Shown here piece after piece: positions 6,909 through 33,600 of a DNA stretch of 39,566 nt. A program made the translations under genes and the position numbers. The notes under the pieces were generated by a model, which was given only the letters and a program-made list of their open reading frames with translations, was not told where the DNA came from and did not search any database. Each line of letters begins with the position of its first letter. Positions within the stretch are counted from its first letter, which is position 1. Source of the stretch: Leptolyngbya sp. DLM2.Bin15 (GTDB lineage Bacteria; Cyanobacteriota; Cyanobacteriia; RECH01); the NCBI GenBank assembly GCA_007694125.1, contig RECH01000193.1, forward strand, positions 1-39,566, given 5' to 3'.

Positions 6909-8975
6909 TTAGGTTTCGCTTGATCCCATGCCATACATCGGCAGATCCAGGGTGATCTGGGTGCCATACTGGGGGGTAGACTGCAGACCAATATGCCCTC
7001 GATGTTGATGCACGATAGTTTGATAGCTGACGGTGAGCCCCAGCCCTGTACCGCGCCCCACGTCTTTGGTGGTGAAAAAGGGATCAAAGATGCGGGTTTG
7101 GTGTTCTGGCGCAATGCCCGGGCCGTTGTCAGCGATCGCGATCCGAATCCAGGTCTGGCCTGTTTCGCGATCGGAGTAGAGCGCCGTGGTGATGTCAATA
7201 AACTTTGGGGTGTGGGAGGGCAGATCGGCTAGGGCATCGAGGGCATTGCCGACAATATTCACAAACACTTGATTGAGCAACTGGGGGTAGCATTCTACCC
7301 AGGGCAAATCGCTATAATGCCGCCGCACCGTCACATCGAGGGGAATCTGGCTTTTGAGGATATCCAACGCGGTATCGAGACTGTCGTGCAGGTCGGCCAG
7401 CTTCCATTCTGCTTCATCCAGCCGGGCAAACCGCCGCAGAGACAGGACAATCTGGCGAATGCGCTCCGCCCCAGTTTGCATCGACCGCAGGGTGTCGGGG
7501 AGATCTCGCAGTAAAAAGTCGAGGTCGAGGTCGTCGATCAGCGATTGTAATTCCTCATCCCCAGGGGTGCGATCGCGGTAGAGCTGCACCAGTTGCATCA
7601 AGCCCTCCACATACTTCTCCACGTGGGGAATGTTGCCGTAGATGAAACTCACCGGATTATTGATCTCATGGGCTACTCCCGCCACCATCCGCCCTAGGCT
7701 AGACATTTTCTCACTTTGGATGAGCTGGGCCTGGGTATGCTGCAGATCCAGCAACGTTTGGCTAAGCTGCTGGGCCTGGGCGCGACTGGTTTCCGCCTGC
7801 TGCTGCACCTGGGTATAGAGATAGGCCTGCTGAATGGAAATGGCGAGCTGATCTGCCACCGCCTGGGCCAGTTCCTGGTCGTCTTTTGACCAATAGCGCA
7901 CATGGCTGCACTGGTTGATGTACAAAATGGCGTGGAGGCGCTCCTTGGTTTGCACCGGCACCATCAGGGCCGAGCGAATCTGGGCATCCTGATACTCGGG
8001 ATTGCAGTCTCCAATGCGCGGATCCTGGGATACATCGGTGATCACCACCCGCTGCCGATGTTCGGTCACCCAACGGGTGATCGGCCCGTTGGTATCAAAG
8101 CCCTCAATCGACGGCAAAAAGGGCGGGCGACAGACTTCAAAGAGGTAGTGTTGGCGAAAAACGTTGCCAATGCGCTCGGTATCCGGCAGGCTTTGAAACA
8201 ACTGCGAGGTTTCATCCGGCGGGTTGACCAAATGCACCAGGCAGCGATCGCTACCGATGGCATCCATCACCTGGGTAATGGTTTGGGAGAGCACCAAGCG
8301 CAGATCCAAACTTTGGCGAGTTTGATTGGTGATGTAGTTCACCACCTGCTCTCGCCGCGCCTGTTTTTGGATAGTTTCGTAGAGCTGCGCCTGGTAAATG
8401 GCCACCTCAAGCTGCTGGGCAATGGTTTGAATCAGATCTAGATCCGCATTGCTCAGGGGCGTGCTGCAGGAGCCCAGGGCCGCAATAAACCCAAGGGCAT
8501 TGGCCTGCCCCTTCACCGGCACCAGCAAATTCACCGGCTGCCCCAGCACCTCCCAGCGCGGTAGATGGGGCGATCGCATTTGAATAAACGGACGACTCAA
8601 CAACCCTTGCCCATGGGATGGAGAGGTTGTGAGCCCTGCTGCAAATTCTCCTTTGCGCACCAAGGTTGCTGCACTGCCAAATCGAGCTAGGGGATAGTAG
8701 CCCACCAAGGATGGATGCTCGGACGGCTGGGTTTGGCAAACCACTTGAATGCGCTGGATATCTTTGAAATACCAGAAAAACAAGCAGGACTCGACCCCCA
8801 ATAGATCTGAGATTTCATCGACAGCCGTTTGCAGCACCACATTCAGCTCTAGAGAGCCGCGAATGCGATCGAGAATGCGACGCAGGGATTGACTTTGCTG
8901 CGCGGAGGGAGAAGATCCAGACACCAAAATATTTTTAAGCTGGTGGAGAAATAAAAGCACGGTCGTCAGCAGCAC
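6909..8975 (-). CDS. GAF-GAF sensor histidine kinase
   Basis: A 688-residue kinase without transmembrane helices apart from a short hydrophobic N-terminus. Two GAF-type sensor domains occupy about 35-200 and 215-390, followed by a coiled coil rich in Gln (about 385-425). The phosphoacceptor is H436 in VAGVAHEINNP; the ATPase domain shows the N box (FVNIVGNALDAL, about 571-582), DNGPG (616-620), DPFFTTK (631-637) and GTGLGL (642-647). No receiver domain or adjacent response regulator is present, so it is an orphan kinase. The GAF ligand is unknown; cysteines occur but no obvious bilin-attachment motif. The GTG start at 8973-8975 has no clear Shine-Dalgarno sequence, so the first residues are uncertain. 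Confidence 0.92.
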   Translation of the reverse strand: MLLTTVLLFLHQLKNILVSGSSPSAQQSQSLRRILDRIRGSLELNVVLQTAVDEISDLLGVESCLFFWYFKDIQRIQVVCQTQPSEHPSLVGYYPLARFGSAATLVRKGEFAAGLTTSPSHGQGLLSRPFIQMRSPHLPRWEVLGQPVNLLVPVKGQANALGFIAALGSCSTPLSNADLDLIQTIAQQLEVAIYQAQLYETIQKQARREQVVNYITNQTRQSLDLRLVLSQTITQVMDAIGSDRCLVHLVNPPDETSQLFQSLPDTERIGNVFRQHYLFEVCRPPFLPSIEGFDTNGPITRWVTEHRQRVVITDVSQDPRIGDCNPEYQDAQIRSALMVPVQTKERLHAILYINQCSHVRYWSKDDQELAQAVADQLAISIQQAYLYTQVQQQAETSRAQAQQLSQTLLDLQHTQAQLIQSEKMSSLGRMVAGVAHEINNPVSFIYGNIPHVEKYVEGLMQLVQLYRDRTPGDEELQSLIDDLDLDFLLRDLPDTLRSMQTGAERIRQIVLSLRRFARLDEAEWKLADLHDSLDTALDILKSQIPLDVTVRRHYSDLPWVECYPQLLNQVFVNIVGNALDALADLPSHTPKFIDITTALYSDRETGQTWIRIAIADNGPGIAPEHQTRIFDPFFTTKDVGRGTGLGLTVSYQTIVHQHRGHIGLQSTPQYGTQITLDLPMYGMGSSET

Positions 8976-9516: not shown

Positions 9517-9656
9517 GATCAAATTGCACGTGATTAAGATCACTCTTATCACTGTACCAAGATCACTAAGGTCATCCAGTCTAGATCACTACAAAATCAT
9601 GATTTGATCACGCCACTTTGGCTAGAGGATCACCGGTGAGTTCACTGAGACATCAC
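9517..9656. repeat. phased ATCA(C) array, seven copies at 21-23 bp
   Basis: GATCA occurs at 9517, 9538, 9561, 9584, 9606 and 9628, with spacings of 21, 23, 23, 22 and 22 bp. A seventh, ATCAC at 9652, continues the series after 23 bp. All but the first read ATCAC, and the preceding bases are mostly A/T. The sequence between copies is not conserved, so this is not a simple tandem duplication. Two helical turns between sites places all on one DNA face, as in iterated operators or iterons. It lies directly upstream of the small gene at 9726. Confidence 0.6.
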
Positions 9657-9661
9657 AGCGC

Positions 9662-9697
9662 CTTCATACAATATCTACGATACTCATGAGTATGAAG
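9662..9697 (+). promoter_or_regulatory. inverted repeat over a probable -10
   Basis: CTTCATAC (9662-9669) and GTATGAAG (9690-9697) are perfect eight-base inverted repeats. A 14-bp palindrome, ATACTCATGAGTAT (9680-9693), overlaps the right arm, so two folds compete. TACAAT (9667-9672), a five-of-six match to a -10, overlaps the left arm. The start codon is 29 bases further on. Confidence 0.45.
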
Positions 9698-9725: not shown

Positions 9726-9929
9726 ATGCATACCCAACCTCACCTGCACTTTACGTCCCTCGAACAAATTATTCAGCGCATTTTTGAAACTCGCTGTATC
9801 ACACGTCTCGACCAACAGCAGTTTATGAGCATGGTACGGTCAGCCGGAGCGATCGCTCCCCAAGACCAAGCGCTGATTAACCGGGTGTTTGATGCCCTGC
9901 GCCACGGACGCTTGAAAGTTACCGACTAG
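9726..9929 (+). CDS. small conserved cyanobacterial protein, unknown function
   Basis: A 67-residue protein with the pattern FTSLEQIIQRIFETRCITRLDQQQFMSMV, then a second helix-rich half ending in a basic tail (DALRHGRLKVTD). I recognise the general form, 'SLE..I..VF.T..IT..DQ..FM', from short cyanobacterial proteins with no assigned function; that recall is not a database result. AGGA lies ten bases before the ATG. No cysteine pair, signal peptide or membrane segment is visible. The gene stands alone downstream of the phased ATCAC array and the inverted repeat, an unusually elaborate upstream region for so small a gene. Confidence 0.75.
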   Translation: MHTQPHLHFTSLEQIIQRIFETRCITRLDQQQFMSMVRSAGAIAPQDQALINRVFDALRHGRLKVTD

Positions 9930-10051
9930 GCTCGACACCGCCACCATCCACCAGGCTAGACCAACGGGTATCAGAGTTGCCCACCTAGCGATCGAAAAGA
10001 TGGTAGATTCTGATTCAACTTCACTTGCCAGCGCGCTCTGGGAGGCACACC

Positions 10052-11344
10052 TTGAATCAGTCTGCGTCAACGTCTACTCCGACGTCTACCCCAACCTACG
10101 ACATTCTGCTCCGCCAGGGATCTCTGCTCCACCCCGATCGCCCCTCTGAGATCGTCGATCTAGGCATTCGTGATGGACAGATTGCCGCGATCGCCCCCCA
10201 TCTCGACGGCACCGCTATTACAGAACTGGATGTGACCGGTCAGGTGATCAGTCCGCCCTTGGTGGAATCCCATATTCATCTTGACTCTGCCCGCACCATT
10301 GGCAACCCCCGCTGGAACCAAAGCGGCACCTTGTTTGAAGGCATTGATATTTGGAGCGATCGCAAAAAGACGCTAACCGTTGAAGAAGTATGCGATCGGG
10401 CTGTGGGCACCCTCAAGCAGCAGGCGCTGCAGGGGGTGCTGTTTGTGCGCAGTCACGCGGATGTCAGTGAACCCACCCTCACGGCCCTGCAAGGATTATT
10501 GGCCGCTCGGGAGCAGGTGAAGGATTGGATGACGCTGCAGGTGGTAGCATTTCCCCAAGATGGGATCTACAGCCAGCCGAAAAATAATGACCTCATGGAA
10601 GAAGCCATGAAGCTGGGCGCTGATGCGGTGGGCGGCATTCCCCACTATGAACTCACGCGGGAGGATGGGGTGCAGTCGGTGCATCGCATCTTTGACCTAG
10701 CAGAACGCTACGATCGCTTGATTGATGTTCACTGTGATGAAATCGACGACGACCAGGCCCGCTTTTTGGAAGTCATGGCCGCCTGCGCCATTCGTCGCGG
10801 CAATGGTGCCAAGGTCACCGCTAGCCACACCACCGCCTTTAGCTCCTACAACAATGCCTATGCCATGAAGCTCCTAGGCTTTTTGCAGCGCGCCCAGATC
10901 AACTTTGTCTCCAACCCCCTCATTAATATCACCCTCCAAGGACGCACCGACACCTACCCCAAACGGCGCGGCGTGACGCGGGTAAAGGAGCTATGGCAGT
11001 TGGGGCTCAATGTCAGCCTGGGTCATGACTGCATTCAAGATCCTTGGTATAGCTTAGGTACCGGCAATATGCTAGATGTAGCCAGCATGGCGATCCATGT
11101 TTGCCACATGACCGGCCAAGCCGAAATCGATGCCTGCTACAACATGGTGACCTGGCATGGAGCCAAAACGCTGAATGTGGCGGATGACTATGGTCTAGAG
11201 GTGGGTAAACCGGCGAATGTGATTGTGCTAGCAGCCAGCGATCGCTACGATGCCATTTGCCGGCGTGCTACGGTGCAGTATGTGATCTCCCGTGGGCAGA
11301 TGCTGGCCCAGACCCGTCCTCCCGAACCCCAGTGGTGCCGATGA
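10052..11344 (+). CDS. codA: cytosine deaminase (amidohydrolase family)
   Basis: Closely follows the E. coli CodA pattern: HIHLDSARTIGNPRWNQSGTLFEGI, RLIDVHCDEIDDDQARF, VTASHTTAFSSYNNAY, PKRRGVTRVKEL and GHDCIQDPWYSLGTGNML. Expected metal and catalytic residues are present, numbered from the TTG at 10052: H74 and H76 (HIH), H227, E230, H259 and D326. The enzyme hydrolyses cytosine to uracil and ammonia for pyrimidine salvage; related family members act on isoguanine or other ring amines, so exact substrate is inferred. The frame extends upstream to 10025, but GGAGG at 10041-10045, six bases before the TTG at 10052, fixes the start. The stop overlaps the start of the DUF309 gene. Confidence 0.92.
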   Translation: MNQSASTSTPTSTPTYDILLRQGSLLHPDRPSEIVDLGIRDGQIAAIAPHLDGTAITELDVTGQVISPPLVESHIHLDSARTIGNPRWNQSGTLFEGIDIWSDRKKTLTVEEVCDRAVGTLKQQALQGVLFVRSHADVSEPTLTALQGLLAAREQVKDWMTLQVVAFPQDGIYSQPKNNDLMEEAMKLGADAVGGIPHYELTREDGVQSVHRIFDLAERYDRLIDVHCDEIDDDQARFLEVMAACAIRRGNGAKVTASHTTAFSSYNNAYAMKLLGFLQRAQINFVSNPLINITLQGRTDTYPKRRGVTRVKELWQLGLNVSLGHDCIQDPWYSLGTGNMLDVASMAIHVCHMTGQAEIDACYNMVTWHGAKTLNVADDYGLEVGKPANVIVLAASDRYDAICRRATVQYVISRGQMLAQTRPPEPQWCR

Positions 11345-11754
11345 CTGATCCGATTCCCGCCGATTTTTGGCAAGGCGTTGACCAATTTAACCAAGGCGAT
11401 TTCTATGCCTGCCACGACACCCTAGAAGCCATTTGGATGGAAGCGCCCCACTACCAAAAGGGTTTCTACCAAGGGGTGTTGCAACTAGCCGTAGCGCTCT
11501 ACCATCTGAGTAACCACAACTGGCGAGGCAGTGCCACCTTGCTAGGGGAGGGCGTACATCGCCTAGCCGCCTATCCATCCGACTACGCTGAGATTGATGT
11601 GGCACAGTTGATGCGCCAAAGTGCCGTCCTGTTGCGATCGCTTCAGGAATTGGGGCCGGATGAGGTGGAAGCGATCGCCCAGCAGGTGTTTCATCCTGTA
11701 GACCCTGCCCAATCTCTCTGTCCGGTGATTCGGCGGTTAGATGCTGATGAGTAG
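11341..11754 (+). CDS. DUF309 family protein
   Basis: A 137-residue helical protein with the family signature H-x3-E-x2-W (ACHDTLEAIWMEA, about residues 23-35), followed by QKGFYQGVLQLAVALYHLSNHNWRGSATLL, typical of DUF309. Its biochemical role is unknown. The ATG at 11341 shares four bases (ATGA) with the codA stop, so the two are translationally coupled; the longer upstream frame would lie inside codA and is rejected. Coupling to a deaminase may hint at a shared pathway, but DUF309 genes occur in varied contexts. Confidence 0.88.
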   Translation: MTDPIPADFWQGVDQFNQGDFYACHDTLEAIWMEAPHYQKGFYQGVLQLAVALYHLSNHNWRGSATLLGEGVHRLAAYPSDYAEIDVAQLMRQSAVLLRSLQELGPDEVEAIAQQVFHPVDPAQSLCPVIRRLDADE

Positions 11755-14556: not shown

Positions 14557-17031
14557 ATGACCTTTACACTCCAACTGCTGCATGCGGCCGATCAAGAAGC
14601 GGGAATTCCTGCCCTTGAAGATGCCCCTCGCTTTTCTGCCGTCCTCAATGCCCTGCGGAATGATGGCTTTGGTGCAGATGGAACGCTCACCCTGTCATCG
14701 GGAGATGCCTACATTCCTGGCCCGTTCTTTAGCGCTAGCGAAACGCTGCTAGGGGCTGCCGGCCGGGCGGATATTCTGATTCAAAATGAATTGGGCTTTC
14801 AAGCGATCGCTTTTGGCAACCACGAGTTTGATTTGGGCACCGGCGCAATTCGCAATCTGATTGCCCCAGCCACCGTTGACATTAACGGCGAAACCATCAA
14901 CTACCCTGGCGCGCTTTTTCCCTATCTCAGCGCCAACCTAGACTTCACCAATGACGCCAATCTCTCTGGACTGGTGGTTGCCGATGGTGCAGCGCCCCAG
15001 CCCAACTCCATCGCTCGCAGCGTGGTGATTCAAGAAGGCGGCATTGATTTCGGGATTGTCGGTGCCACAACGCCAACCCTGTCCCGGATTTCGTCACCCG
15101 GTGCTGGTGTTGATATTCTGGGTACTGAAAGTATTGAGAGCTTAGCGGCAGCGATCCAAGCGGAGGTTGATAATCTTACCAATGCTGGCATTCAGCATAT
15201 TATTTTGCTGGCTCATATGCAGCAACTTGCCATTGAGCTAGAGCTGGCTCGTCTCCTCGAAGGGGTAGACATTATCGTGGCGGGTGGCTCCAATACTATC
15301 CTGGCCAATGACACCGATCGCCTCCGAGCTGGAGACGTTGCGGCTGGCACCTATCCGATCATTGTGGACACCGATAGCAACGGCGCGCCCAAGGCAGAAC
15401 CGGTGGTGGTGGTCAACACCGATGGCAACTACCGCTATGTGGGGCAACTGGTGGTGACCTTTGATGAAAATGGGGTAATCATTCCAGGCAGCATTGACTC
15501 GGCAGTCAGCGGAGCCTATGCCACGGATGCGGCTGGTGTTGCGGCCTTGAATGCCGAGAATCTAGTGGATCCAGAGATTCAGCAGATTGTAGACGAACTA
15601 TCGGCGATCATCTCTAGTCTAGATGGTTCGATTTTTGGCAACACCTCGGTTTTCCTCAACGGCAGCCGTGCAGATGTGCGCACTCAGGAAACTAACCTAG
15701 GTAATTTAACTGCTGACGCTAACCTATTTGCTGCTCGAAAAAGCGATCGCACCGTGCAAGTGTCGCTGAAAAATGGCGGCGGTATTCGCGACAATATCGG
15801 TTTTGTCACCTTCCCGGCTGGCTCCACCGATCCCAACGATGCTCTGCTGCTTCCACCTAGCGCCAACCCTCTGGCGGGCAAGGAGGAGGGCGATATCTCG
15901 CAGCTCGATGTCAGCAATGCCCTGCGGTTTAACAACGAACTATCCTTAGTCACCATCACCGCACAGCAACTGCGCTACCTGATGGAGCATGGGGTGGCGG
16001 CCAGTGGAGCCGGCGCGACGCCAGGCCAGTTTCCCCAGGTGGGCGGCATGTCCTTTAGTTTTGATGCCACCCGCACCGCCATTGTGTTTGGTGAGAATGG
16101 AGCAGTGGTCACCGAGGGCGATCGCATCCGTAACCTAGCGCTGCTGGATGATAACGGCCGCGTGGTGGATGTGCTGGTGCGCAATGGCCGCCTTGTGGGC
16201 AATCCCAACCGGGAGATTCGCATGGTCACGCTGAGCTTTTTAGCCGATGGGGGAGATAGCTATCCGCTGAACTTCTTTGCCACCAACCGGGTAGACTTGC
16301 TGGAAGAGGGCGTGCGCACCGGGGCTGCCACCGATGCGGATAATGGCACCGAACAGGATGCCCTAGCGGAATATTTGCTGGATCAGTTCTCCACCAATCC
16401 TTTCAACGAACGGGATACACCAGCCCAGCGCGATCGCCGCATCCAGAACCTAGAGGTGCGCGATGATGCCGTGCTGGATCGACGCTTCTTCCTACAGGGC
16501 ACGAACGGTCGTGATGTTCTAGCGGGTGGCCCACGCAATGATCAACTGCTAGGACGTGGGGGAGATGATGTCCTGCGTGGGTTCGGCGGCAATGATGTGC
16601 TCAATGGCGGTGCTGGCAATGATCGTCTGAATGGCGGCGCTGGCAACGATGTGTTGATCGGTGGTGCTGGCAACGATCGCCTGAATGGTGGTGCTGGCAA
16701 CGATATCTTGGAGGGTGGCTCCGGCAACGACATTCTCCGTGGCGGCGCTGGCAATGATGTGTTAGATGGCGGCGCTGGCAACGATGTGTTGATTGGCGGT
16801 GGCGGTCGTGATCTCTTTGTGATCGGCAGACGCCCTGGTGTGGACACGATTCGCGACTTCAATCAGCGGCAGCGCGATCGCATCGGTCTACTAGGTGACC
16901 TATCCTTTGGGGATTTGACCTTCACGCAGCAAGGTCGCAATACCCTAATTCAGGTCGGACGGCGTGACATTGCGGTGCTGCAACGGGTGGATGCGGATAC
17001 CCTCACCGCTGCCAACTTCCGTACTCTGTAA
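14557..17031 (+). CDS. secreted 5'-nucleotidase/metallophosphatase with RTX repeats
   Basis: An 824-residue protein. The N-terminal metallophosphoesterase domain (about 1-310) shows LLHAADQEAG (D12), LSSGDAYIPG (D50), AFGNHEFDLG (N88, H89) and LLAHMQQ (H220). A 5'-nucleotidase C-terminal domain (about 340-600) contains LGNLTADA, NGGGIRDNIG and FLADGGDSYPL. RTX nonapeptides (GGAGNDVL type) fill about 650-755, followed by a C-terminal segment ending NFRTL. No N-terminal signal peptide is seen, as expected for type I secretion through the C-terminus. The usual D-x-H and GHSH motifs appear as DQE and GGSN, so this is a divergent subgroup whose activity is uncertain. It would release phosphate outside the cell. 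A candidate Pho box lies upstream, a terminator downstream. Confidence 0.9.
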   Translation: MTFTLQLLHAADQEAGIPALEDAPRFSAVLNALRNDGFGADGTLTLSSGDAYIPGPFFSASETLLGAAGRADILIQNELGFQAIAFGNHEFDLGTGAIRNLIAPATVDINGETINYPGALFPYLSANLDFTNDANLSGLVVADGAAPQPNSIARSVVIQEGGIDFGIVGATTPTLSRISSPGAGVDILGTESIESLAAAIQAEVDNLTNAGIQHIILLAHMQQLAIELELARLLEGVDIIVAGGSNTILANDTDRLRAGDVAAGTYPIIVDTDSNGAPKAEPVVVVNTDGNYRYVGQLVVTFDENGVIIPGSIDSAVSGAYATDAAGVAALNAENLVDPEIQQIVDELSAIISSLDGSIFGNTSVFLNGSRADVRTQETNLGNLTADANLFAARKSDRTVQVSLKNGGGIRDNIGFVTFPAGSTDPNDALLLPPSANPLAGKEEGDISQLDVSNALRFNNELSLVTITAQQLRYLMEHGVAASGAGATPGQFPQVGGMSFSFDATRTAIVFGENGAVVTEGDRIRNLALLDDNGRVVDVLVRNGRLVGNPNREIRMVTLSFLADGGDSYPLNFFATNRVDLLEEGVRTGAATDADNGTEQDALAEYLLDQFSTNPFNERDTPAQRDRRIQNLEVRDDAVLDRRFFLQGTNGRDVLAGGPRNDQLLGRGGDDVLRGFGGNDVLNGGAGNDRLNGGAGNDVLIGGAGNDRLNGGAGNDILEGGSGNDILRGGAGNDVLDGGAGNDVLIGGGGRDLFVIGRRPGVDTIRDFNQRQRDRIGLLGDLSFGDLTFTQQGRNTLIQVGRRDIAVLQRVDADTLTAANFRTL
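16507..16812 (+). repeat. RTX calcium-binding nonapeptide repeats (coding)
   Basis: About eleven in-frame 27-bp units encode GG.GND.L.-type nonapeptides that form a calcium-binding beta roll. Several adjacent units differ only at single bases, so recent expansion is likely. Confidence 0.9.
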
Positions 17032-27600: not shown

Positions 27601-30600
27601 GGCAGACTATGTGCCGGTGGTGGATGGCGTGCTGGTCTTTGCGCCAGGTACCACCCAGCAGTTGATTACCATCACGGTGAATGGCGATGATGTGGCGGAG
27701 GAGGATGAAACCTTTAGCGTCGTCCTCAGCAATCCATCTGGGGACGCAACCCTAGATCTGGATGCCAGTGAAGCGACGGGGACGATTATTGATAATGACG
27801 ACCCACCGGGGATCGCTATTTTAGATACGGCGGTCACGGAAGGCAATGTGGGGCAGACCACCAATGCAATTTTCACCGTTCAGCTTAGCAATCCTAGCCA
27901 GACGGAGGTGACGGTTGACTACAGCACGGCGAATATTACCACCAGCACCGGTGGCGATCCAGCGACGGGAGGCGATGACTATGTGCCGGTGGCGAGTGCA
28001 ACCCTGACCTTTGCACCCGGTGTCACCCAGCAGTTCATTACCATCACCGTGAATGGGGATAACGTTAACGAGGATGATGAAACCTTTAGCATCACCTTGA
28101 TTAACCCTAGCGGGGCAGACCTAGACAGGGGCCTGGGCATCGGCACCATTATCGATAACGATGCTGCACCGGTGGTGACGATTAGTAATGCCACGGTGCT
28201 GGAAGGTGATGTTGGAGAAACGACCACGGCGGTGTTCACCGTCAGCCTCAGCAATCCCAACCAAGCAGCGGTGACCCTGGCCTACGCCACGGCGGATGGT
28301 ACGGCCGAAACCGGCGGTGACGGAGCCCTGGGAGGTGATGACTATGTGCCGGTACTGGATGGGGCGCTCACCTTTGCTCCTGGCGTTGTTCAGCAGTTTA
28401 TTACGATCACGGTGAATGGCGATAACGTCACAGAACCGGAGGAGACGTTTACCGTTACCCTGAGCGGGGCTACGGGTGGGGCGACGTTGGGTGTTGACAC
28501 GGGCACAGGCACGATTATCGATAATGATGTGCCGCCAGTGATTTCGGTTCTAAATACTTCGGTTCTAGAAGGTAACATCGGCGAAACCAGCGATGCTATC
28601 TTCACCGTACGCCTCAGTAACCCCAGCCAGACGGAGGTGACGGTTGCCTACAATACTGAGGATGGAACGGCTAGCTCTGGGGGAGATATAGCGGCCGGCG
28701 AGGGTGACTATGTGCCGGTGCTGGGTGGCAGTCTGGTCTTTGCGCCAGGAACGACCCAGCAGTTGATTACCATCACCGTGAATGGGGATGATGTTGATGA
28801 AGAGAATGAGACATTTCGCTTAATCCTTTCCGCTCCGACGGAAGCAACCCTGGGTGATGGGGTAGCTACTGGCACGATTATCGACAACGATGGGCCACCA
28901 GCGATCGCCATCCTCAACACCAACGTCAATGAAGGTAACCTCGGGGAAACCACCAATGCGATCTTTACGGTTCAACTAACCAACCCTAGCCAGGCCCAAG
29001 TTACGGTGCCCTATGCCACCGCTGACATTACCACCAGCACCGGCGGTGATGTGAATGCAGGGGGGGCAGACTATATTCCTGTGCTAGATGGTTTCCTTAC
29101 CTTTGAGGCGGGTGAGACCCAGCAGTTTATTACGATCACCGTGAATGGCGATGATGCCAATGAGGGCGATGAAACCTTTAGCGTGACCCTTGGTGAACCA
29201 ACTGGGGGTGCGACCTTGGTGGAGGGGGCTGACACCGCCATTGGCACGATTATCGATAATGATGCCCAGCCAGCGATCGCCATTTTGGGAACGTCGGTGC
29301 TAGAGGGTGATGTGGGCACCACCAGCAACGCCATCTTCACGGTGCAGCTGAGCAATCCCAGCCAGACGGCGATCGCGGTGGACTACAGCACCGTGGATGG
29401 CACGGCCACCTCGGAGGCGGGTCAGGTGGGTCGTGACGACTATGTGCCGTTGGATGGGTCTCTGACCTTTGCACCGGGAGAGACGCGCCAGTTGATCACG
29501 GTGACCGTGAATGGGGATGCGATCAGCGAACCCAACGAAACCTTCACGGTGGTGTTGGACAATCTTCAAGGCACTGCCGAGTTCGCCAACACCACGGCTG
29601 TAGGCACGATCATCGATGATGATGCCAAGCCCACGGTTACCATCAATAACGTCACGGTGCTCGAAGGCGATATCGGGGAGACGAGCAACGCTATCTTCAC
29701 GGTGAATCTGACGACGGCGAGTCAGGAACAGGTGACGGTTGCCTACCGGACGGAGGATGGCACAGCGAGTTCTGGGGGCGATCCTCTGATCGGTGGTGCG
29801 GACTATGTGCCGGTGCTGGATGGGTCTCTGACCTTTGCGCCAGGGGAAACGCGCCAGTTAATCACGATCACGGTGAATGGGGATAACGTCAACGAGGACA
29901 CTGAAACCTTCACGATCATCCTAAGCAATCCCTTGGGTGGCGACGCGACGTTGGCTGATACGACGGCCACGGGGACGATTATCGACAATGATGATCCACC
30001 GGTGCTGAGTATTTCCAATACCTCGGTGTTGGAGGGCGATAGTGGTGAGACGACCAATGCGATCTTCACGGTGCGGTTGAGCAATCCTAGCCAGGAAGCG
30101 ATCGCCCTCACCTACAACACGCAAGATAATACGGCCACCTCCACCGGTGAGATTGACTTGGGTGAGGCGGACTATGTGCCGCTGCTGGATGAGGTGCTGA
30201 ATTTTGCCCCCGGCGAGACCCTGAAACTGATCACCGTGACGGTGAATGGCGACAACATCAATGAAGGAGATGAAACCTTCAACCTTGTCCTAAGCGACAT
30301 CACTGGGGATGTCACCTTCACAAACTTGGTGGGCGTGGGCACCATCGTGGATAACGATGCACCGCCAGTGGTGACGATTAACAGCGTTTCGGTGCTGGAA
30401 GGCGATAGTGGCGACACCACCAATGCGGTCTTTACGGTGCGCTTAGATCGGGCGAACCAAACGCCGGTGACCGTTACCTACAATACAGAAGATGGAACGG
30501 CTACGGCGGGTGGTGATAGTCAGGTCGGCGGTAATGATTATGTGCCGGTGACGAATGGGGTCATCGTCTTTGAACCGGGTGTGCTTGAGCAATTGATTAC

Positions 30601-33600
30601 CATTACTGTCAATGGTGATGATGTCAACGAGCCCAGCGAGACCTTCAACGTCGTTCTCAGCAATCCCACAGGCGGCGCTGAACTGAGCGATACTGCCAGC
30701 GTTGGTACTGGAACCATTATTGACGACGATGCCCAGCCAGCGATCGCCATTTTGGGAACGTCGGTGCTAGAGGGTGATGTGGGCACCACCAGCAACGCCA
30801 TCTTCACGGTGCAGCTGAGCAATCCCAGCCAGACGGCGATCGCGGTGGACTACAGCACCGTGGATGGCACGGCCACCTCGGAGGCGGGTCAGGTGGGTCG
30901 TGACGACTATGTGCCGTTGGATGGGTCTCTGACCTTTGCACCGGGAGAGACGCGCCAGTTGATCACGGTGACCGTGAATGGGGATGCGATCAGCGAACCC
31001 AACGAAACCTTCACGGTGGTGTTGGACAATCTTCAAGGCACTGCCGAGTTCGCCAACACCACGGCTGTAGGCACGATCATCGATGATGATGCCAAGCCCA
31101 CGGTTACCATCAATAACGTCACGGTGCTCGAAGGCGATATCGGGGAGACGAGCAACGCTATCTTCACGGTGAATCTGACGACGGCGAGTCAGGAACAGGT
31201 GACGGTTGCCTACCGGACGGAGGATGGCACAGCGAGTTCTGGGGGCGATCCTCTGATCGGTGGTGCGGACTATGTGCCGGTGCTGGATGGGTCTCTGACC
31301 TTTGCGCCAGGGGAAACGCGCCAGTTAATCACGATCACGGTGAATGGGGATAACGTCAACGAGGACACTGAAACCTTCACGATCATCCTAAGCAATCCCT
31401 TGGGTGGCGACGCGACGTTGGCTGATACGACGGCCACGGGGACGATTATCGACAATGATGATCCACCGGTGCTGAGTATTTCCAATACCTCGGTGTTGGA
31501 GGGCGATAGTGGTGAGACGACCAATGCGATCTTCACGGTGCGGTTGAGCAATCCTAGCCAGGAAGCGATCGCTGTCACCTACAACACGGCTAATATCACC
31601 ACCAATACCGGAGGCGATCCGGCACTAGGGGAAAATGACTATATCCCAGTGGTGGATGGGGTGCTGAATTTTGCAGCCGGTGAGACCCTGAAACTGATCA
31701 CCATTACGGTGAATGGCGATGACATCAGCGAAGGGACAGAAACCTTCAGCGTGAACCTGAGTGGCGTGACCGGGGATGCCATTCCTGGCAACGTCCAAGG
31801 TATTGGCACCATTGTTGATAATGACCCACTACCGCAGATCACCATCTTGGATACGGCGGTGCAGGAAGGGAATTTGGGCGAGACGGCGATCGCCACCCAC
31901 ACGGTGCTCTTGTCTGCCCCCAGTGCCCAGACTGTAACCGTGGGCTTTGCCACGGCCAATGGCACGGCTACCGTGGCAAACAATGACTATCTGGCCACCT
32001 TTGGGCAGATTACCTTTGCGCCAGGGCAAACCGTGGCCACCATCAATGTCACGGTGGTTGGGGATGACACCTTTGAGCCCGATGAAACCTACGTTATCAA
32101 CCTCAGCAACCCCAGTAACGCCTCTCTGGGCAACACCCAGGGTATTGGCACCATCGAAAATGATGATCCCCAGCCGGTAATCTCAATTTTGGGAGTCACG
32201 GTGAATGAAGGTGATGCGGGCACGACCCTAGCTCCCTTCACGGTGCAGTTGTCCAACCCTAGCTTTGCCCCGGTGATTGTGGCCTATGAAACCGTGGATG
32301 GCACGGCGACGGCAGCTCCTGGCGTGGGAGGCAATGACTACGTAGCTGCTTCCGGCTTGGTGACCTTTGCCGCTGGGCAGACGACTCAGGTGGTAAACAT
32401 TACGGTGAATGGTGATACCACCTTTGAAGGCGGCGGCATTGAAACCTTTGAGGTGCGGCTCAGCAGTCCCACCGGTGGCGTCCTTAGTTCCAGCGCCCGT
32501 CAAGCGATCGGTGGCATCCAGGATGACGATGATCTGCCCGTGGTGATGATCAATGATGCCAGTGTTTTAGAAGGAGACACAGGCACCAGTGATCTGATCT
32601 TCACGGTGTCCCTATCTGCTGTCAATGCAGCGACGGCCCAGGTTGCTTATCAGGTGAATGATGGCACCGCCACCGCCGCCGACAACGACTATATTCCCGA
32701 TGCTGGCACGCTGGTTTTTGCACCCGGACAAACGGTGCAAACGCTGACGGTGCAGGTGGTGGGTGATATCGCCTTTGAGGACGACGAGACCCTGACTGTG
32801 GAACTGTCGAACTTTGATGGCATGGCTGCCGGAGATGCGATCGTGGGTACGGGCACCATCCTCAATGACGATGAACCTGCCACCTACAACTTCTTGCGGG
32901 CTGCGTTTAGTGCCCGAGAGGGGGATACCACCAATACCGTCAACCAAGTGCGGGTGGTGCGATCGGGGGATACTACCTTGGCAAGCACGGTGACGGTGCT
33001 GTTGGCGGCAGGTACACCGCCAGCAACGCCTGGGGTGGACTTTACGCCGGGCCCTGTCACCGTTACCTTTGCTCCGGGAGAAACCATTGCGCCTGTCCCC
33101 ATCGAAATTTTGGGCGACACCGATTTTGAGCCCGATGAGGTGATCAACCTCTCCTTTGGAACTGTGACACCGGGGAACAATGGACGCATTGGCACAACCC
33201 AGCCGACGGCTACATTCACGATTCTCAACGATGATCCAGAACCGCAGATCTACGAGTTCAATCGAACCACCTACAGCGCAAGAGAGCCGAGAAGCGATCG
33301 CCGCACGGTAGAAACGGTGCAGGTGATTCGCTCGGGCGATATTACGGTGAACTCGCGGGTGGATGTGCGGCTGACGGGAATCTCTGCAACAGCGGGCGAT
33401 GACTTTGTGGCGGGCCCGGTGCGAGTGCGGTTTAGCCCTGGGGAGACCATCCAGTCGGTGCCAATTACCATCCTGGCGGATGACTTGGTGGAAGATGACG
33501 AAGAGGTGCGGCTCTCCTTCACCAACTTCAACCGCAATGGCATGGCTGGAGATCAGAATACGGCTACCTTCGTGATTCTCGATAATCCTCCCCCAGTTGA

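Follow-up and report, generated by a model that had tools for sequence, protein, structure and literature searches.

The window, the whole 39,566-nucleotide stretch of Leptolyngbya DNA analysed here, contains a genuine array of six TCAC sites upstream of a small gene, far exceeding what chance would produce. It consists of one inverted-repeat first site followed by five half-sites, ends 26 bp before a GATACT box, and is conserved in relatives, with the layout recurring in much of the cyanobacteria ahead of homologous small-protein genes. The arrangement is probably a promoter array for an activator of the CRP family, which would nucleate at the distal palindrome, extend toward the gene as cooperative dimers on the half-sites, and activate transcription in the class II manner.

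A phased TCAC array at a predicted small-gene promoter

All features of the array lie on the forward strand. The anchor is the palindromic site GTGATTAAGATCAC, of the form GTGA-N6-TCAC, at 9530-9543, and its own TCAC occupies 9540-9543. The half-sites follow at 9563-9566 (a step of 23 bp), 9586-9589 (23 bp), 9608-9611 (22 bp), 9630-9633 (22 bp), and 9653-9656 (23 bp), the last being proximal to the promoter. The predicted -10 box GATACT is found at 9679-9684, and the gene predicted to be controlled by the array, at 9726-9929, encodes a 67-residue protein of an uncharacterised cyanobacterial small-protein family. Transcription of this gene is predicted to start near 9691.

The original prediction listed seven GATCA or ATCAC words, and all are present: GATCAC occurs at 9538, 9561, 9584, 9606, and 9628, ATCAC at 9652, and a further GATCA at 9517. 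The word at 9517 does not belong to the array as its relatives define it, since it reads GATCAA and is TATCAA in the same-genus relative G001. Nor is GATCA the conserved core as had been supposed; the core is (A)TCAC, and the leading G is frequent in the window and not general in relatives. Passed over at that stage were the inverted-repeat anchor, the fixed 26 bp to a -10-like box, and the link to CRP-type sites. Two extra TCAC sequences, at 9549 and 9642, are out of phase with the array, and that at 9549 is lost in G001.

The six observed sites compare with a maximum of three TCAC in a chain phased at 22 or 23 bp across 300 dinucleotide-preserving shuffles of the window. Relaxing the phase to any adjacent pair of steps between 10 and 40 raised this maximum to four. 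The spaced form GATCA-N16-18-GATCA was observed five times versus 0.44 expected. GATCAC as a word is approximately twofold enriched across the entire window (54 versus 24 expected), mostly unphased.

Several other identities were considered. Simple tandem duplication had been discounted from the outset, and in agreement Tandem Repeats Finder reported nothing at the array, whose spacers differ from one another and drift in relatives. HIP1 had likewise been set aside, and GCGATCGC is indeed absent from 9530-9684. The suggestion of iterons did not hold: no replication gene was found, the flanking genes encode a GAF-domain histidine kinase (6909-8975, reverse strand) and an amidohydrolase (10025-11344, forward strand, followed by a DUF309 protein at 11257-11754), and arrays of this type terminate at promoters and are present at several loci within one genome. 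An NtcA promoter was rejected, as GTAN8TAC occurs in the window only at 913 and 11751 and not in the array, and an Rfam RNA identity was rejected as well.

With GATACT as the -10 box, the first base of the last TCAC falls at -38, which would put the centre of a GTGA-N6-TCAC dyad at this site at -41.5, the position of a class II activator. The upstream sites in the window would centre near -64.5, -86.5, -108.5, -131.5, and -154.5. No whole multiple of 10.5 bp fits the steps between sites, suggestive of contacts between neighbours rather than separate contacts with the polymerase.

Conservation and anatomy of the arrays

In G001, whose DNA is approximately 92% identical, the six cores, the palindrome, and GATACT are all unchanged; differences from the window fall at 0/33 core versus 9/122 spacer positions, a pair too close to separate core from spacer drift. 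G026 and G219, which belong to other genera and whose proteins are about half identical, carry TCAC-like cores every 22 bp as far as a GATATT box. In this comparison (related pair L005/L070), 2/29 positions of the cores and -10 box changed compared to 47/112 in the spacers (p = 3e-4), upholding the earlier claim that cores are kept and spacers are not. Further arrays were found in the family relative G003, in the more distant G020, G007, and G005, upstream at L006, L009, and L030, and at a paralogue within the genome from which the window derives. Orthologues and paralogues of the 67-residue gene thus retain phased sites while their spacers vary, as predicted for a selected, iterated operator whose sites are separated by two turns of the helix. 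The array is conserved in relatives and is produced neither by shuffles nor by control spacings, the two points on which the original prediction had been made to depend.

Upstream regions were also selected by protein similarity alone. A locus search with the single window protein as query returned no loci, and a family alignment was used instead. Profile A1, made from one branch of the small-protein family, identified 80 loci in cyanobacterial genomes including Microcoleus, Planktothrix, Trichodesmium, Okeania, and Leptolyngbya, and removal of near-duplicates left 53 upstream regions. Pairs of TCAC in these regions were spaced by 22 bp (80 pairs), 23 bp (53), 44 bp (37), and 45 bp (45), versus a mean of 1.1 at other spacings. 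Three or more phased TCAC were present in 40/53 regions, and each control pitch gave 0-1/53.

The genomes of the class were then searched for three successive TCAC spaced by 21-23 bp, with N22 and KANNNT after the third, using the reversed pattern as control. The pattern matched 150/291 genomes, many with 3 to 10 matches, and the reversed control matched rarely; simple repeats account for some matches in both searches. From the matches listed, a sample of 90 without simple repeats was analysed. Although the pattern permits a 21-bp gap, none of these 90 listed matches uses it. Additional TCAC beyond the pattern were found at -22/-23 in 49/90 and at -44 to -46 in 36/90 of the matches listed, with a mean of less than 1 per distance.

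Pattern-selected and protein-selected arrays were pooled and dereplicated, giving 118 arrays of at least three sites each. Counted outward from the promoter, the gaps in these are usually 23 bp, followed by 22, by 22 or 23, and by 22 bp. A GA[TA][AG]NT box stands 26 bp after the last TCAC in 87/118 arrays, and in the protein-selected arrays, for which the box was not used in selection, the hexamer at +26 is mostly GATGAT, GATATT, or GATACT. The spacer contains an A-rich triplet, located 6-8 bp before the box. A full GTGA at positions -10 to -7 of the site is present in the most upstream site of 79/118 arrays and in 7/354 later sites. Since the first site is mostly palindromic and later sites rarely are, the arrays are directional, with the palindrome distal, the half-sites leading toward the gene, and the promoter at the end. 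A full CRP palindrome at every site was accordingly rejected, the later sites showing no GTGA and the description holding for the first site only. Site 2 shows a preference of its own for A at -5 to -3, and the pooled arrays gave no signal for an 11-bp sub-repeat inside the units.

A lone GTGA-N6-TCAC palindrome, with no ladder, was found at the paralogue promoters L071, L073, L077, L080, L086, L087, L091, L010, and L079. Several of these palindromes are perfect, and no clear -10 box was seen at +26 in these promoters. A TATCGAGTTC-like block downstream of the -10 box and ahead of the start codon, at approximately +36 to +46 from the last TCAC, is also conserved in many array promoters, L226, L228, L266, L272, L277, and others among them, and is weak or absent in the window. 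This block may act as a translation signal or as an early transcribed one.

A candidate CRP-family regulator and alternative explanations

We infer a binding protein that acts cooperatively and as an activator rather than a repressor, in response to cAMP or another signal. In the explanation that we consider probable, a CRP-family dimer would bind the distal palindrome at 9530-9543 with high affinity. From there, additional dimers of the same protein would occupy adjacent positions in the direction of the gene, each recognizing a single good half-site, TCAC, and each held by contacts with its neighbour. CRP dimers are placed on the later sites because the TCAC core and the phase are shared there, the GTGA half being missing. 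The pitch would be fixed at 22-23 bp, about one CRP dimer footprint, because neighbouring dimers touch. The last dimer, at -41.5 over the -35 region, would contact RNA polymerase at the GATACT box, and the outcome would be a steep, cooperative switch on the gene at 9726.

The absence of the GTGA half from the later sites, together with the preference of site 2 for A at -5 to -3, could also be read as the work of two proteins, with a CRP-family dimer on the distal palindrome only and another activator recognizing direct repeats (OmpR-, SARP-, AraC-, or MalT-like) occupying the TCAC ladder and contacting the polymerase. Direct repeats of 22 bp are known for such classes of regulator. We consider this explanation unlikely, as the ladder has the same TCAC core as the palindrome and is in register with it, the last site lies at -41.5 as in CRP and NtcA promoters, and the 11-bp sub-repeat was not seen.

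Examination of the genome revealed five CRP-family proteins above the Pfam cut-off. Only one, G000:C374:27666-28361, carries a recognition helix of the RE..R type, RETVTR (LARETVTRVLNKLE), and its nucleotide pocket reads FGEMAPLDEVPRSTDV, FGE...PRST. Going by residue correspondences, we take RETVTR to be the arrangement by which E. coli CRP recognizes TGTGA/TCACA, and this protein is the candidate binder of the array. Among its close orthologues, the helix is kept in 30/30 inspected, and the pocket was also captured in 27. Array matches were found in 136/196 genomes with a close orthologue versus 14/95 with a diverged, weak, or missing one (Fisher p = 3e-19, ignoring phylogeny). The helix is retained even in diverged orthologues from lineages in which matches to the strict pattern are scarce or absent. 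Lineages that gave no strict-pattern match can thus still encode an orthologue with this helix, and the RETVTR protein is at best necessary and alone not predictive. Autoregulation was looked for, and no array was found upstream of the crp gene itself.

The array might instead be bound by one of the other members of the superfamily, for example an NtcA-like paralogue, given that four further CRP-family proteins exceed the Pfam cut-off and that the promoter geometry is common to the superfamily. These four have the helix TRVTVTR, which is of the NtcA type, and the corresponding site GTAN8TAC is absent from the array, leaving such a regulator a rather improbable one.

As DNA is bent by CRP-type binding and the sites come close to being in phase, one can envisage an architectural, DNA-wrapping element in which the promoter is silenced or insulated by phased bends that curl the DNA upstream of it, or a repressor whose complex over -38 could block the polymerase. 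The -41.5 position and a weak -10 box lacking a -35 fit activation instead, and we regard either of these roles as very improbable. That there is no functional array, and that the sites are relics of tandem duplication or of a compositional bias toward GATC words as the window-wide GATCAC enrichment might hint, is a negligible prospect excluded by the shuffles, the control spacings, the reversed patterns, and the distant conservation.

Predicted target genes and relation to known promoters

Among the 90 matches listed, a member of the window-protein family was among the nearest downstream open reading frames in 50, often 24-36 bp after the box. Other recurrent targets were a small protein with PTYWRKLIE, a secreted protein with YLYGQS and FYMPxSSFDCF, an NfeD-like protein, and another short protein. 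In the genome of the window itself, the anchor combined with the next site was matched 10 times, versus 0 in the control, and at least seven of these matches precede short genes. The arrays on its contigs include C116 (offsets 0, 23, 46, 68, 90, 112), C150 (0, 22, 45, 68), C369 (0, 22, 44, 66, 88), and C372 (0, 22, 44, 66), with shorter arrays on C336 and C68. One array type would probably control a shared set of small-protein genes, both in this genome and across cyanobacteria.

None of the target proteins tested reached the curated Pfam cut-offs, and sequence searches of the PDB with the small-protein profiles and two other target proteins gave no significant relative. The 67-residue window protein is predicted to form three helices. 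Structurally, its model best matches part of CdgR, the c-di-GMP receptor of Synechocystis (8hja; TM 0.70 over the query, E = 2.0, not significant). CdgR partners a CRP-family factor, which we note as a lead only.

Cyanobacterial CRP promoters have been described as TGTGAN6TCACA with TAN3T approximately 22 bp downstream (PMC2633013). A palindrome of this type is present at the window promoter as the anchor at 9530-9543, and the later sites singly do not conform. At the position approximately 22 bp upstream of the box lies the half-site TCAC at 9653, the palindrome being 113 bp further up, and GATACT departs from TAN3T in having G in place of T. The array and the SyCRP1/AnCrpA promoters are alike in the GTGA-N6-TCAC core, the distance from the last site to the -10 box, and the encoding of a protein with a CRP helix (PMC2633013). 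They differ in that the array has three to six sites at a fixed 22/23-bp pitch with only the distal one palindromic, a -10 box of the form GATANT, and targets that are mostly small uncharacterised proteins. Tandem sites, half-sites, and their spacing are never mentioned in the 2009 study of cyanobacterial CRP (PMC2633013). NtcA sites, GTAN8TAC, are centred at -41.5 in class II promoters, and the array shares with these the superfamily geometry of a -41.5 centre followed by a -10 box (PMC3898017). Canonical NtcA promoters have one site with a TAC half, whereas the array has a TCAC half and a ladder.

CRP-family regulators are textbook activators acting via single or independent palindromes. In E. 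coli, tandem CRP sites place several dimers upstream of one promoter on independent full palindromes at varied distances, unlike the half-sites of the array, with their one constant pitch and predicted nucleation from a distal palindrome. Pho boxes, SARP sites, and MalT boxes are iterated direct repeats of 11- or 22-bp pitch with the proximal repeat near the -10 box; the array has another core and a palindromic anchor, and those regulator classes are not indicated in it. We found no description of a phased TCAC or GATCAC promoter form in cyanobacteria in the open-access PMC literature. Judged by sequence, cyanobacterial CRP promoters as such are known, and what would be new is the rebuilding of a CRP-type activator promoter as an anchored ladder.

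A half-site ladder of constant pitch with one terminal palindrome would imply a cooperative assembly not described for the CRP family in the open-access PMC literature. We tentatively propose a directional activator filament, in which a palindrome-nucleated CRP-family protein would extend in 22-23-bp steps to -41.5, and the number of half-sites would set the steepness of a phylum-wide small-protein switch. Dozens of uncharacterised cyanobacterial small-protein genes are joined by the arrays in one predicted regulon with a nameable candidate regulator, and both the role of the regulator and the function of the small proteins become directly testable.

Elsewhere in the window, tandem repeats at 16588-16799 consist of 27-bp units, GGCAACGATGTGCTGAATGGCGGCGCT, that are possibly RTX-like, and a long tandem array with a 366-bp period spans 29376-31381.
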